Part shown: piece by piece, positions 5,668 through 12,947 of the stretch | Layout of the letters: each line of letters starts with the position of its first letter | Position numbering within the stretch: position 1 is the stretch's first letter | From: Candidatus Babelota bacterium | GTDB lineage: Bacteria; Babelota; Babeliae; Babelales; Vermiphilaceae | Assembly (NCBI GenBank): GCA_013213985.1 | Contig: JABSSP010000055.1 | Coordinates: forward strand, 1 to 13,878 | Length of the DNA: 13,878 nucleotides | Direction: 5' to 3' | Program-made: the position numbers and the translations under genes | Notes under the pieces: generated by a model | The model's input: only the letters and a program-made list of their open reading frames with translations | Databases searched by the model: none | Told to the model about the DNA's origin: nothing

Positions 5668-6360
5668 TTATCCTATAAAACATTTACTTAGAAGGAGCCC
5701 ACTGTACAAGACAAGACCACCAACCGGCCGTACTACAAAAATGAAAAATAAAAAAGAAAAAAGCATATAATACAGTGGATTATAACTCATAATACTTTCT
5801 CGATTTGAAAAAAACGCATAACGTAGTGTATTAAAAGCAAAGGTTAACCCAGAAAGCAAAATATTAAGACGGGTAAAGGCAAATAAAATAAACGAAAAAG
5901 AAAGAACTAATGAAGAAACATTCGGAGCATTTTGAGCAAGATAATAATAACATGAAAAATCACGTAAGCTCAGTGCATACTTCAATGCGCAACGTGCAGA
6001 CTCTCCAAAAAATACAACCAGCGCTATAATCCCTAGAAAAGAAAAAATGATGTGGGTTATCGTATCAGAATAATAAGCGAGTATTTGTTTTAGTTTTGCA
6101 TGCTTGCCACGTATCGCGGATTTATCAATTACAATAGATTTAAACCAGCCAAATTGTAAAAAAATAAAACAGAAAAAACCGATAATATCGGTATGAACAA
6201 ATGGATTAAACGTCAAATAACCGTCCCGTTCTGGCGTATCGTCTCCCATTTGTAGAGCAACCCAGGCTCGAAACCACCCAACAATAGAAGCGGTAAAGCC
6301 ATAAGCCAGGACAGTTGCGATAGTCCCTATAATAATTTCAGAAGTTCCGACAGTGATCAT
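5668..6360 (-). CDS. M50-like (site-2 protease family) membrane protein without HExxH, probable pseudoprotease
   Basis: A 230-aa polytopic membrane protein with about five or six hydrophobic segments. Residues 27-60 align by eye with the group of M50 proteins that read HExxHAWVAxxLGDxTAxRxGRLTLNPxxHxDPIG. Here it is VGWFRAWVALQMGDDTPE..GYLTFNPFVHTDIIG. The downstream FGWFKSIVID (70-79) matches the usual FGWAKPVPVN, and LNILLSGL (165-172) matches LNLLPIPPLDG. All three HExxH residues are replaced (V27, G28, R31), although D58 of NPxxHxD is kept. Zinc hydrolysis is therefore unlikely; a scaffold or chaperone role, as in rhomboid pseudoproteases, is possible. I place the start at ATG 6360 (AAGGA at 6371-6375) rather than a TTG at 6414 that lacks a ribosome binding site. 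It is followed immediately by the Nudix gene. Confidence 0.7.
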   Translation of the reverse strand: MITVGTSEIIIGTIATVLAYGFTASIVGWFRAWVALQMGDDTPERDGYLTFNPFVHTDIIGFFCFIFLQFGWFKSIVIDKSAIRGKHAKLKQILAYYSDTITHIIFSFLGIIALVVFFGESARCALKYALSLRDFSCYYYLAQNAPNVSSLVLSFSFILFAFTRLNILLSGLTFAFNTLRYAFFSNRESIMSYNPLYYMLFSFLFFIFVVRPVGGLVLYSGLLLSKCFIG

Positions 6361-6436
6361 AATTAATGTTTCCTTGAAAAAAAGACCCCCATACGCTGCA
6401 AAAAAGCTCAGCAAGCGCGTTACAGTTTATATAACA

Positions 6437-9508: not shown

Positions 9509-9529
9509 GGACTATCTAAATAATAGTCC
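9509..9529 (+). terminator. hairpin between ybeY and the channel gene, weak terminator or leader stem
   Basis: GGACTAT (9509-9515) and ATAGTCC (9523-9529) are perfect complements around a 7-base loop. The following TTGCTTTGCTTTG is T-rich but interrupted by G and C, so as an intrinsic terminator for valS-ybeY it is only fair. It could instead be a 5' leader stem of the next operon. Confidence 0.35.
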
Positions 9530-9580: not shown

Positions 9581-9588
9581 AAAGGGAG
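9581..9588 (+). promoter_or_regulatory. ribosome binding site deciding the channel start
   Basis: AAAGGGAG lies 5 bases before ATG 9594. It is the best Shine-Dalgarno near this gene, and it rules against the in-frame ATG at 9507, which sits inside the hairpin and would add 29 polar residues. Confidence 0.7.
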
Positions 9589-9593
9589 TTAGA

Positions 9594-10637
9594 ATGACCA
9601 GTAAAAAAGAAATGGAAAAAGAAAAAAGCAGACTAGTGCGACCTTTTTTTCAAATTATATGCATCGTTGTCACTATGGTGACCATTTCCCTAGCCATTAG
9701 TAAACGCTTTGGGTTTTCAAGAATACATGACCCCTACGACACTCCTGAAATAATCACTCCGCAAAAAATAAAAGAATTCGGTGGCTACCCTAATCGAGTT
9801 ACCGTCGGACTTAATATCGATCAATTTCACAAATTTAGTATGTCAAAAAACGAATTTGTGTTTTCCGGCACACTGTGGTTCCTTATGAATCCTGGCAGCA
9901 TTTCACTTAATACTCTTGATAATTTTGAATTTTCTCGGGGAGAAATCCTTTACAAATCAAAACCTAACACACGAATGGTTGACAATAAACTCTTGGTAGA
10001 ATATAAAATACGTGTGCAATTTACCTCTCCACTTACCTATAGATCCTTCCCTGTTGGTGATCATCGTTTAAATCTTACGCTCACTCATCAATCACTTTCA
10101 CTCGGTGAAATTATTTTCGAATCTACAGAAAAACACTTTATTAATACAACTAACATGCGTGAGCGAGGGTGGATGGCGATTAATAAAACGGTAGATGCTG
10201 GATATAAAACAACCAAGTTAGAAGATTCACCCACTGGTATGCTATATAGGCCAACTGTTACATTTTCCATCGACTATTCACGCAAAGACGTTCGTTATCT
10301 TATTTCTATTTTTATACCGTTACTGCTTATGTTTTTTATTGGCTTGTTTTCATTTTCAACATCGCGGTCAGTGGCAATACGAATAACCAATGGCGTCATA
10401 GCAGCAACACTCGCATATCGATTTGTTATCGAAAATATGGCACCCAGTGTGGGTTATTTTATGTTAACTGATTATCTCTTTTTGCTCTTTTTGTTTTTAA
10501 ACTTCCTCACGTTTCTCGTGATTATGACTGACTCATTTGCCATACATATATCTAGACGAGCTAAAATGATTTTTATTGTAACTTTACATGCTATTGTTAT
10601 TGCCACATGTATTTATCTCTTTCTCGTGTGGTCATAG
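9594..10637 (+). CDS. pentameric ligand-gated ion channel homologue (prokaryotic Cys-loop receptor family)
   Basis: Predicted inner-membrane channel with a periplasmic ligand domain. A basic N-terminus is followed by a hydrophobic signal or anchor (15-36). Residues about 66-228 are strand-rich and contain the SGTLWF block (91-96) and YRSFPVGDHRLNLTL (149-163), matching the Cys-loop region FPxDxQ with no cysteines, as in bacterial members. The M1 boundary is canonical: SRKDVRYLISIFIP (229-242), then M1 to about 254, with P242 in place of the family's M1 proline. M2 is about 258-280, the M2-M3 loop has P284, M3 is 288-312 and M4 is 323-345. The length of 347 aa fits GLIC/ELIC-type channels plus an N-terminal segment. 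Aligning the ALAYRFVIE-like end of M2 with GLIC by hand would put R263 near pore position 2', which is unusual. It is followed 12 bases later by a ligand-binding lipoprotein. Confidence 0.82.
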   Translation: MTSKKEMEKEKSRLVRPFFQIICIVVTMVTISLAISKRFGFSRIHDPYDTPEIITPQKIKEFGGYPNRVTVGLNIDQFHKFSMSKNEFVFSGTLWFLMNPGSISLNTLDNFEFSRGEILYKSKPNTRMVDNKLLVEYKIRVQFTSPLTYRSFPVGDHRLNLTLTHQSLSLGEIIFESTEKHFINTTNMRERGWMAINKTVDAGYKTTKLEDSPTGMLYRPTVTFSIDYSRKDVRYLISIFIPLLLMFFIGLFSFSTSRSVAIRITNGVIAATLAYRFVIENMAPSVGYFMLTDYLFLLFLFLNFLTFLVIMTDSFAIHISRRAKMIFIVTLHAIVIATCIYLFLVWS

Positions 10638-10649
10638 AAAGGATAGCCA

Positions 10650-12929
10650 GTGAAAAAAAATATTAAAATTATAGTAGTACTTTTATTGATCACGGGCTGC
10701 ACAATAAATAGTTTCGACACATTGAAGGATTTGCAGCAATACGCCATTGTACACCCGCAGCTACCAAAGGCAGACAACACAAACTGGGTTGACCTTGATT
10801 ATTCAACCTTTCATAAATCGCTATATCCAAATTTTTTGCAACGCACCGCACATAAGGTGGGAATAAAAAATCAACAACTTAATAGGGTAGAAAAATTAAA
10901 ACAACTTCTTGAAAAAGTTGTTTTATCACAAAAAAAGAAAGGCCTTCCACAAAAATATATTGCATATATGTCATGCATTGATTCAGCTCGCTTCACGATA
11001 ATGGGAGATCTTCAGGGTTCCTTTCACGCACTCGTGCGAATGCTGACCTGGACATACAGTAAAAATATGATCAACGGTGATCTGAAAATTATCAATCCAA
11101 ACTATTACTTTGTTTTTAATGGCAATAGTATCGATGGATCTGCATACGCACTAGAAACATTGCATCTTATATTACTTCTCATGCATCGCAATCCTGAAAA
11201 AATTATCTACATACGTGGACAGTATGAACATGAAAATTATTGGCACAATCTTGGCCTTGAACGCGAGTTGCAAATACGTGCTGCGCATTTATCTGATGAA
11301 ATAATACCACTCGGGTCATTGGTAAGCACTTTTTTTGATACACTTCCCTATGCATTGTATATCAGCTCAAAAACAAGTCCTTCCGAGCTCATAAAAATCG
11401 TTCACGCAGGAAAGGCAGAAGAAGAACTAGACGAAATTCTTATGGGTAAATTTCTTACTCAATGCCATGACACTCCGATTGCTTACTATGATATAACAAA
11501 TAAAAGAAAAACATCGCGTGTGCCCGATATTAGGGCAATCATAACAACCCAAGATTTAATGATAGAACAAATAATACAACAAGGACTTGGCTTATTGGAA
11601 CAAGAGCACGGTGCCACTGTATGGGCACTATTTTCGTCCCCTATATCTACTCACCGCGGCAAACTTGAACTACATTTTGACTCGTTTGCACTTTTGGATA
11701 TAAAAGATTCGATAACGAACAGCACTATTACGCTCTTTAATCGTAAGGCGCAAGCTGTAGACAAAAAATTCAAACGAAAAGGTATTTATAACATTGCTAA
11801 TGGCATGCAACTTGATCGCGAGACACGTAAAACGCAACCTTCAAATGAATTTTACTTAGGATCAACAATGGGCTTGATAACTGGTGTTCCAAGTATGGCG
11901 CGAAGAGTTAAACAGGGAATGCTCATACGCATAAAAGAAGCAAATCAAGAGGGCGGTGTAAATGGAACCCGCCTGCGAGTATTTATAAAAAATGACAATT
12001 ATACTCCACATATTACCCGTCGCAATATGAGTAATTTTATTAAGGATTATGGCATTGATACTTTCTTACTTCCTACAGGGAGTCCAACCTTACACTCGTA
12101 CTTAGACTATGTACGAGAGAATAAAATACTCGTGCTCTTTCCTATTACCGGCTCACCTGCCTTTAGAACACCAGAGTTAAGCAGTCTGATAAATTATCGA
12201 GCATCATATCCAGATGAAGTAAAAGCTATGCTTGAATATCTAATACAAGAATATGATACGAGCAATTTTGCCTTTTTCTATCAAGATGATGCCTATGGAC
12301 AAGGGGCCTTTAAAACTGCTCAACAAGTATTAGAAAAAATAAAAGGCAAAAAAGTGATTGCCATACCCTACAAGCGGGCCGAAGTCATTTTTGGTGAACA
12401 AATAAAAGAAATGAAAAAGCATCCGGTGGATGCGATCGGCTTTTTCTCAGCTTCGCAGCCGACACAAGAATTTATTCGTGAAATTGGCGTAGAATATCTA
12501 GCTAACAAACAACTATTTTGTCTTTCGTTTTTGGCCGAAGAATCATTTCGTCACTTTTTACAAAAAAAAGGACTTAACATGATTTTCGGGTCCGTTGTAC
12601 CCAATCCAGAAACAAGCAATTTAGAAATTGTCCAAGACTATCGCAATACTATGAAAAAAAATTATTATGAAACCTATGATACATTTTCACTCGAAGCATA
12701 TATTGCCACCAGCATTTTGATTGATGTTATGGAACAAATCACTCAACCCATTACGCGACAAAAAATAGCACAACAATTAAAAACCTTTAACAATTATCAG
12801 TTCAAAGGATTAGATCTTACCTTTAATCCTATAACACAATCACTGTCACAGCATATTTGGATAGAAGACGGATATCAAAAAAAATGGATAAAAAGGAGAA
12901 TAGATACAAAAAAAAAGACGCAAGAATAA
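10650..12929 (+). CDS. lipoprotein fusing a degenerate PPP-phosphatase-like domain to a LivK-type periplasmic binding domain
   Basis: 759 aa. The N-terminus has a lipoprotein signal with lipobox ITGC (C17). Residues about 114-340 follow the PPP Ser/Thr phosphatase layout: FTIMGDLQGSFHALVRML (115-132), FNGNSIDGSAYALETLHLIL (156-175), then IIYIRGQYEH (185-194) and VHAG (251-254). Against GDxHG, GDxVDRG and GNHE, the His becomes Q122, the second Asp N159, the Asn Q191 and the His Y192, while D120 and H252 remain. Catalysis is doubtful. Residues about 400-750 are a type I periplasmic binding domain of the branched-chain amino-acid type: YLGSTMGLITG, KEANQEGGVNG, FPITGSPAFRTP, YRASYPDEV, FFYQDDAYGQGA and VVPNPETSN. 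GTG start with AGAAAGGA six bases upstream. No ABC permease or ATPase gene is nearby, so a sensor role with the upstream channel is more likely than transport. Confidence 0.8.
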   Translation: MKKNIKIIVVLLLITGCTINSFDTLKDLQQYAIVHPQLPKADNTNWVDLDYSTFHKSLYPNFLQRTAHKVGIKNQQLNRVEKLKQLLEKVVLSQKKKGLPQKYIAYMSCIDSARFTIMGDLQGSFHALVRMLTWTYSKNMINGDLKIINPNYYFVFNGNSIDGSAYALETLHLILLLMHRNPEKIIYIRGQYEHENYWHNLGLERELQIRAAHLSDEIIPLGSLVSTFFDTLPYALYISSKTSPSELIKIVHAGKAEEELDEILMGKFLTQCHDTPIAYYDITNKRKTSRVPDIRAIITTQDLMIEQIIQQGLGLLEQEHGATVWALFSSPISTHRGKLELHFDSFALLDIKDSITNSTITLFNRKAQAVDKKFKRKGIYNIANGMQLDRETRKTQPSNEFYLGSTMGLITGVPSMARRVKQGMLIRIKEANQEGGVNGTRLRVFIKNDNYTPHITRRNMSNFIKDYGIDTFLLPTGSPTLHSYLDYVRENKILVLFPITGSPAFRTPELSSLINYRASYPDEVKAMLEYLIQEYDTSNFAFFYQDDAYGQGAFKTAQQVLEKIKGKKVIAIPYKRAEVIFGEQIKEMKKHPVDAIGFFSASQPTQEFIREIGVEYLANKQLFCLSFLAEESFRHFLQKKGLNMIFGSVVPNPETSNLEIVQDYRNTMKKNYYETYDTFSLEAYIATSILIDVMEQITQPITRQKIAQQLKTFNNYQFKGLDLTFNPITQSLSQHIWIEDGYQKKWIKRRIDTKKKTQE

Positions 12930-12947
12930 ATGCGTCTCTTTTTCTTT
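12907..12947. terminator. bidirectional intrinsic terminator
   Basis: AGACGCA (12916-12922) and TGCGTCT (12931-12937) form a 7-bp stem with an 8-base loop. It is followed on the + strand by CTTTTTCTTT, and on the - strand by a T-run complementary to the A-run at 12908-12916. It ends both the lipoprotein gene, whose stop codon lies in the loop, and the convergent small gene. Confidence 0.82.

Follow-up and report, generated by a model that had tools for sequence, protein, structure and literature searches.

The window analyzed here, that is, the whole 13,878-nucleotide stretch of DNA, comes from an organism that groups with Dependentiae/Babeliales, a lineage known so far from members dwelling within single-celled eukaryotes (protists). 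Two of its genes, both on the + strand and 12 bases apart, encode a predicted pentameric ligand-gated ion channel (pLGIC) subunit and a lipoprotein. This arrangement, together with a ribosome-binding-like site before the second gene, had been pointed out in an earlier sequence-only reading and is borne out by the features listed below.

9509–9529, + strand: terminator-like hairpin separating ybeY from the channel gene, a possible upstream border of the unit (pattern scan, consensus match only)
9583–9588, + strand: AGGGAG, ribosome-binding-like site, 5 nt before ATG 9594 (read from sequence)
9594–10637, + strand: predicted pLGIC subunit, 347 aa (sequence, profile and fold comparisons)
9642–9710, + strand: N-terminal hydrophobic helix, aa 17–39, signal anchor or signal peptide (AF2 model and hydrophobicity)
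9792–10283, + strand: beta-sandwich ligand-binding domain, aa 67–230 (AF2 model and structural match)
10047–10064, + strand: FPVGDH block, Pro-loop (family alignment, 99 sequences)
10293–10628, + strand: M1–M4 helices, aa 234–255, 258–282, 291–315 and 321–345 (AF2 model and alignment)
10638–10643, + strand: AAAGGA, ribosome-binding-like site, 6 nt before GTG 10650 (read from sequence)
10650–12929, + strand: lipoprotein, 759 aa, with a PPP-phosphatase-like domain and a type I periplasmic binding domain (sequence, profile, AF2 and fold)
10689–10700, + strand: lipobox ITGC, Cys17 (read from sequence)
10872–11804, + strand: PPP-phosphatase-like domain, about aa 75–385, with Pfam Metallophos at aa 114–268 (Pfam, profile and motif survey)
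11832–12899, + strand: LivJ-like type I binding domain, about aa 395–750, with Peripla_BP_6 at aa 416–717 (Pfam, profile and fold)
12908–12945, both strands: terminator-like hairpin after the lipoprotein (pattern scan, consensus match only)

Elsewhere in the window, positions 1803–2510 hold a deoxynucleoside kinase (dNK, E 6.2e-49), consistent with nucleoside salvage, and positions 5668–6414 a membrane protein with several hydrophobic stretches, the tested part of which has no Pfam match.

The assignment of the first protein to the pentameric ligand-gated type, already made in the sequence-only reading, holds up in several comparisons. The channel matches GLIC both as a single sequence (E 3.4e-6) and as a family profile (E 4.7e-13), and its AF2 model, a monomer prediction, has the pLGIC layout of a beta-sandwich ligand-binding domain followed by a four-helix transmembrane domain (fold comparison by VIA-align, re-ranking Foldseek's top 1000). 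HMM searches against the neurotransmitter-gated families had been suggested as a check, and here the outcome is divided: Pfam gives no match for the window protein and only weak matches for 2 of 95 family members, but the family profile does reach GLIC. Sequence, profile and fold all point to the same identity, so the silence of Pfam was not counted as a refutation; a family nearly invisible to Pfam would also explain why its members are named 'hypothetical protein'. A search for PF02931 in the organism's own genome says nothing on channel identity, since control genomes were without a match too. The signature-loop proline P153 is kept in all 99 channel sequences, and the animal-type cysteine pair of the Cys-loop, placed by assumed offsets, is absent from the window protein (S145 and L159), with residue 159 being L, I, V, F or M and never cysteine across the 99. 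On these sequence and model grounds, the window protein is a real pLGIC relative of the Pro-loop type, which would presumably form a ligand-gated pentamer.

The second transmembrane helix is unusual. In a register that we assume from a by-eye alignment to GLIC, YRFVIE occupies M2 14'–19', with Arg15' in 98 and Phe16' in 99 of the 99 sequences; position 9' is Thr in 77 of the 99 and Ala in the window protein, 6' is Gly in 51 of the 99, and 2' is Arg in the window protein. Since M2 is unusual and its register was set by eye, ion selectivity is not readable from the sequence. Position 9' is usually hydrophobic in pLGICs, and its departure from that rule, along with the glycine at 6', would suit a pore through which the lipoprotein hands over its ligand as cargo, making the channel a solute facilitator that depends on a binding protein, not an ion-signalling device. 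We regard this as decidedly improbable: Phe16' and Arg15' may form a constriction, and we know of no pLGIC that carries organic solutes. Also in its favor, Chromulinavorax must import host metabolites, according to its genome paper (PMC6561590).

The partner lipoprotein is modelled confidently over its full chain (AF2, pLDDT 90.8, pTM 0.90), and its lipobox predicts a location outside the cytoplasm. Its type I binding domain, recognized in the sequence-only reading, is real: the C-terminal half matches Peripla_BP_6 (Pfam, 6.6e-35) and the LivJ-like structure 4kv7 (profile 6.5e-50; Foldseek E 6.4e-25, TMt 0.86), so that the two-lobe type I fold is present, and the best 50 Foldseek matches of the lipoprotein are all binding proteins or sensors built from them. 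Seven residues, namely G477, F497, P498, G501, R517, Y520 and E523, are kept in 46 to 50 of 50 partners and sit in stretches that align with 4kv7; judged by that alignment, they presumably line the binding cleft. Among 101 partner ORFs (a count that holds one truncated gene twice, through the overlap of loci L082 and L131), a lipobox-like site is present in 10 and a hydrophobic N terminus in 83, while 8 show neither feature.

What the sequence-only reading had overlooked is the N-terminal part of the lipoprotein, a degenerate PPP domain. Metallophos scores above its Pfam cut-off there, and positions 81–201 of the partner-family profile match PP2A (E 4.8e-8). We surveyed eight metal-binding or catalytic positions of PP1/PP2A (motifs GDxHG, GDxVDRG, GNHE and HGG) in 51 of 60 proteins, the other nine falling outside 650–860 aa. 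Only three of the eight are kept in the window partner, and its domain is therefore called a probable pseudophosphatase. Two of the 51 members, which include the window's own, keep all eight positions (P0119 and P0126), and seven further members have lost exactly one; in a wider survey of sequences added with MAFFT, partly discordant with the 51-member survey and given less weight than it, none of 74 domains keeps all eight. By an alignment-free count, a single ORF out of 76 domain-bearing ones at the loci combines the three PPP motifs, as do 2 of 60 database relatives. The sole motif-complete ORF among the 76 (L061, 11974–13851) is a PPP gene with a signal-like N terminus that directly follows a channel/partner pair on the opposite strand to that unit. 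Stand-alone PPP-like frames of 434–469 aa were also seen in five channel-less relatives (L150–L154), four of them with the three motifs; these may be active enzymes from which the degenerate domain descends, or its cousins. Long stand-alone phosphatase-like proteins bear Metallophos alone in seven of nine cases and no Pfam domain in the other two.

An active phosphatase could make or destroy the channel's ligand, or dephosphorylate the channel itself. The nine members with at most one position lost and the intact stand-alone genes of related genomes speak for such an enzyme, but the three positions left in the window protein and the rarity of the full motif set, whose single occurrence at the loci lies on the opposite strand, leave it hardly any credence. 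For the window protein itself an active phosphatase was rejected, the position survey and the motif count being in agreement. From sequence, the domain is probably a former enzyme whose catalysis was lost in most channel-linked copies, the window protein's included.

The sequence-only reading asked whether the pair recurs in related genomes, and in most of those with the channel it does. Of 86 relatives 51 carry the channel, as do 64 of the 101 genomes searched across the phylum, and the surroundings of every channel match in the 86 gave 70 loci, or 72 with the partner-only loci L131 and L132, plus the window; locus ORFs were scanned with three profiles built from database relatives. A binding-domain and/or phosphatase-like gene lies on the same strand within 400 nt of 66 of 84 channel ORFs, fragments included, and a linked partner was found in 43 of the 51 channel-bearing genomes. 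Sixty of these 66 are linked to a binding domain and 56 to a phosphatase-like domain, and for none of the 84 is the nearest partner-type gene within 400 nt on the opposite strand. The commonest order (upstream/downstream of the channel) is none/fusion (30), followed by binding protein/phosphatase-like (13), binding protein/none (10), none/phosphatase-like (5), fusion/fusion (4), fusion/none (2), binding protein/fusion (1) and phosphatase-like/none (1); in some families, the partner's two domains sit on different proteins, a binding protein upstream of the channel and a phosphatase-like one downstream. An all-against-all comparison of neighbour ORFs found no other recurring family in more than 9 genomes, versus 43 for the partner. 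Because the pairs stay together in most channel-bearing relatives, channel and lipoprotein probably form one sensor.

Co-occurrence genome by genome points the same way. Strong partner matches (E < 1e-25, a cut-off picked after the table was seen) occur in 42 of 51 channel genomes and in none of 35 channel-less ones; at E 0.001 the figures, counted by hand, are 46 of 51 and 13 of 35. Among the channel-less genomes, the five best partner matches (E 8e-23 to 1e-16) are the stand-alone PPP-like frames L150–L154, which align over the phosphatase core alone and leave the binding domain uncovered. On a channel tree of 79 of the 84 ORFs, five having been left out as short or gapped, all three gene-order labels cluster, the fused-partner label less tightly: upstream binding protein needs 3 changes versus a shuffled mean of 19.4, fused partner 14 versus 26.4 and no partner 10 versus 14.0. 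Outside the lineage, a genome scan returned 17 loci, all from MAGs, 13 of which bear Dependentiae, Babeliales, Babeliaceae or TM6 names, while among the best 120 of 137 proteins in a profile search five carry organism names, four being Dependentiae or Babeliales and the fifth a Myxococcales MAG (P0071).

Eighteen of the 84 channel ORFs have no partner-type gene within 400 nt, although three of these have a same-strand partner 1.1–2.5 kb away and one is at the edge of its contig. A linked partner is missing from eight channel-bearing genomes (G007, G015, G024, G054, G059, G067, G072 and G075), and the partner is thus not always needed. One partner-free channel (L091, 8937–11245) stands between two same-strand genes labelled by eye as peroxiredoxin-like, and an 8.3-kb contig carries three tandem partner-free channel genes (L100, 803–3972), perhaps encoding a heteromeric channel. 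Channel architecture varies as well: four channels of a single family, f17 (L113, 6043–7719 and 13388–15058; L122, 8357–10009; L123, 13466–15151), have about 210–225 extra N-terminal residues rich in hydrophobic stretches, and in L112 (7121–11671) the channel domain ends a chain of 1517 aa whose long N-terminal part is rich in basic and hydrophobic residues.

On the partner side, chains near channels reach 2381 aa. In L082 (G026:C5:111000–130900), L131, L113 and L081, a single phosphatase-like domain leads into three to five binding domains of type I; five binding domains alongside a pentameric channel are suggestive, and may be due to chance. Such arrays, and the existence of partner-free channels, would also fit a lipoprotein that is the main actor, that is, an adhesin, scaffold or sensor of a host molecule, with the channel sensing another cue such as pH and using its partner only as an anchor or assembly factor. 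We consider this unlikely, the near-invariant positions aligned with 4kv7, with their presumed role in the cleft, standing against it.

Channel and binding domain have also diverged in parallel. Across 57 linked pairs their distances correlate with r 0.67, the highest value in 2000 permutations being 0.21. For paralogues within one genome, the order of distances agrees in 332 of 358 comparisons (19 paralogue pairs in 17 genomes), which are not independent of one another and from which distance differences under 0.03 were left out. Genomes in which fused-partner and split-partner units coexist contribute much of this agreement, which is poor in G047 (0 of 3, for one of its three paralogue pairs), G001 (0 of 1), G025 (2 of 4) and G063 (16 of 24). 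Long linkage alone would also be expected to give parallel divergence, and linked genes could share a pathway without physical contact.

Given a LivJ-like binding domain, the lipoprotein might simply be the substrate-binding protein of an amino-acid ABC transporter encoded elsewhere, placed beside the channel by chance, and permeases of the LivH/M type (PF02653) do occur in 30 of the 86 genomes. The sequence-only reading had noted that no ABC permease or ATPase gene is present in this stretch; in the assembly (87.8% complete), PF02653, the one permease family searched, is without a match. Of the 42 genomes with strong partner matches, 30 lack PF02653 as well, and it occurs in 14 of 51 channel genomes versus 16 of 35 others, a difference that is not significant (p 0.11). 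With channel/partner linkage spanning many families and an additional phosphatase-like domain in the partner, we judge ordinary uptake very improbable. A role in chemotaxis was considered and is unsupported, the MCPsignal domain of chemoreceptors being found in none of the 86 genomes and in 7 of 14 controls. Both functions fit poorly because of these two absences.

We lean, modestly, towards a two-gene receptor-channel unit, in which a channel gated by a binding protein senses a small, perhaps amino-acid-like solute. The channel, presumably a homopentamer in the inner membrane, would expose its ligand-binding domain to the periplasm, where the type I domain of the membrane-anchored lipoprotein would close on a small solute that, to judge by related domains, most likely resembles an amino acid or a carboxylate. 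The PPP-derived domain, with catalysis probably lost, may serve as a rigid adaptor or docking face, such that the ligand-loaded partner would bind the outer domain of the channel and shift its gating, and a solute from the host or environment would alter ion flux and membrane potential. Channel-partner contact, gating, ligand, ion selectivity and a host-sensing role are all putative, and we infer gating by a loaded binding protein with a dead phosphatase adaptor as the simplest use of the parts. A broader proposal, plausible if somewhat doubtful, is that a binding protein of the soluble type here gates a pLGIC in trans, that a dead eukaryote-like PPP domain was recruited outside the cytoplasm as a coupling adaptor, and that multi-sensor arrays of up to five binding domains per chain extend across an order of protist-dwelling members.

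No paper on this channel family, nor on a ligand-gated ion channel of Dependentiae, was found in the open-licence literature, which leaves absence from print unproven. The term 'ion channel' is missing from the accessible parts of the genome papers on Babela (PMC4378268) and Chromulinavorax (PMC6561590), and TM6 is absent from an inventory of Pro-loop receptors (PMC4795631). The channel/partner pair is real, conserved and under-annotated. If the partner does gate the channel, the unit would be a modular receptor whose sensor can be swapped or multiplied with the pore unchanged, in parallel with the amino-terminal domains of glutamate receptors.

The cellular role of bacterial pLGICs is largely unknown, and those that have been studied serve as models of neuroreceptors; a dedicated, co-inherited ligand-binding partner makes the channel's natural ligand and role directly testable. 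For GLIC, we know of no comparable partner. The C-terminal half of the window partner resembles LivJ/HAAT proteins (4kv7, 3lop, 4n0q), from which it differs in its PPP-like fusion, its channel neighbour and the lack of a PF02653 permease in the assembly. Similarly, its N-terminal profile recalls PPP phosphatases (PP2A, PP5), whereas the domain is predicted to be extracytoplasmic and has mostly lost its catalytic residues. In DeCLIC, the extra N-terminal domains are jelly-roll lobes of the channel chain itself, as described in PMC9897478, while the binding domain of the window unit is on a separate protein. The closest precedents are those of Tasneem et al. (2004; PMC549065): pLGICs are tied there to periplasmic binding domains by fusion or operon, a linkage shared in kind with the present pair, and ligand gathering and chemotaxis are proposed as functions. 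There, however, type I domains are N-terminal fusions and the operonic partners are of type II, whereas here a type I domain is carried by a separate, PPP-fused protein; their text contains none of the words phosphatase, TM6, Dependentiae and lipoprotein. The channel/partner unit is a variant of the pLGIC/binding-protein associations described in 2004, set apart by an unexpected module that is probably a pseudophosphatase.
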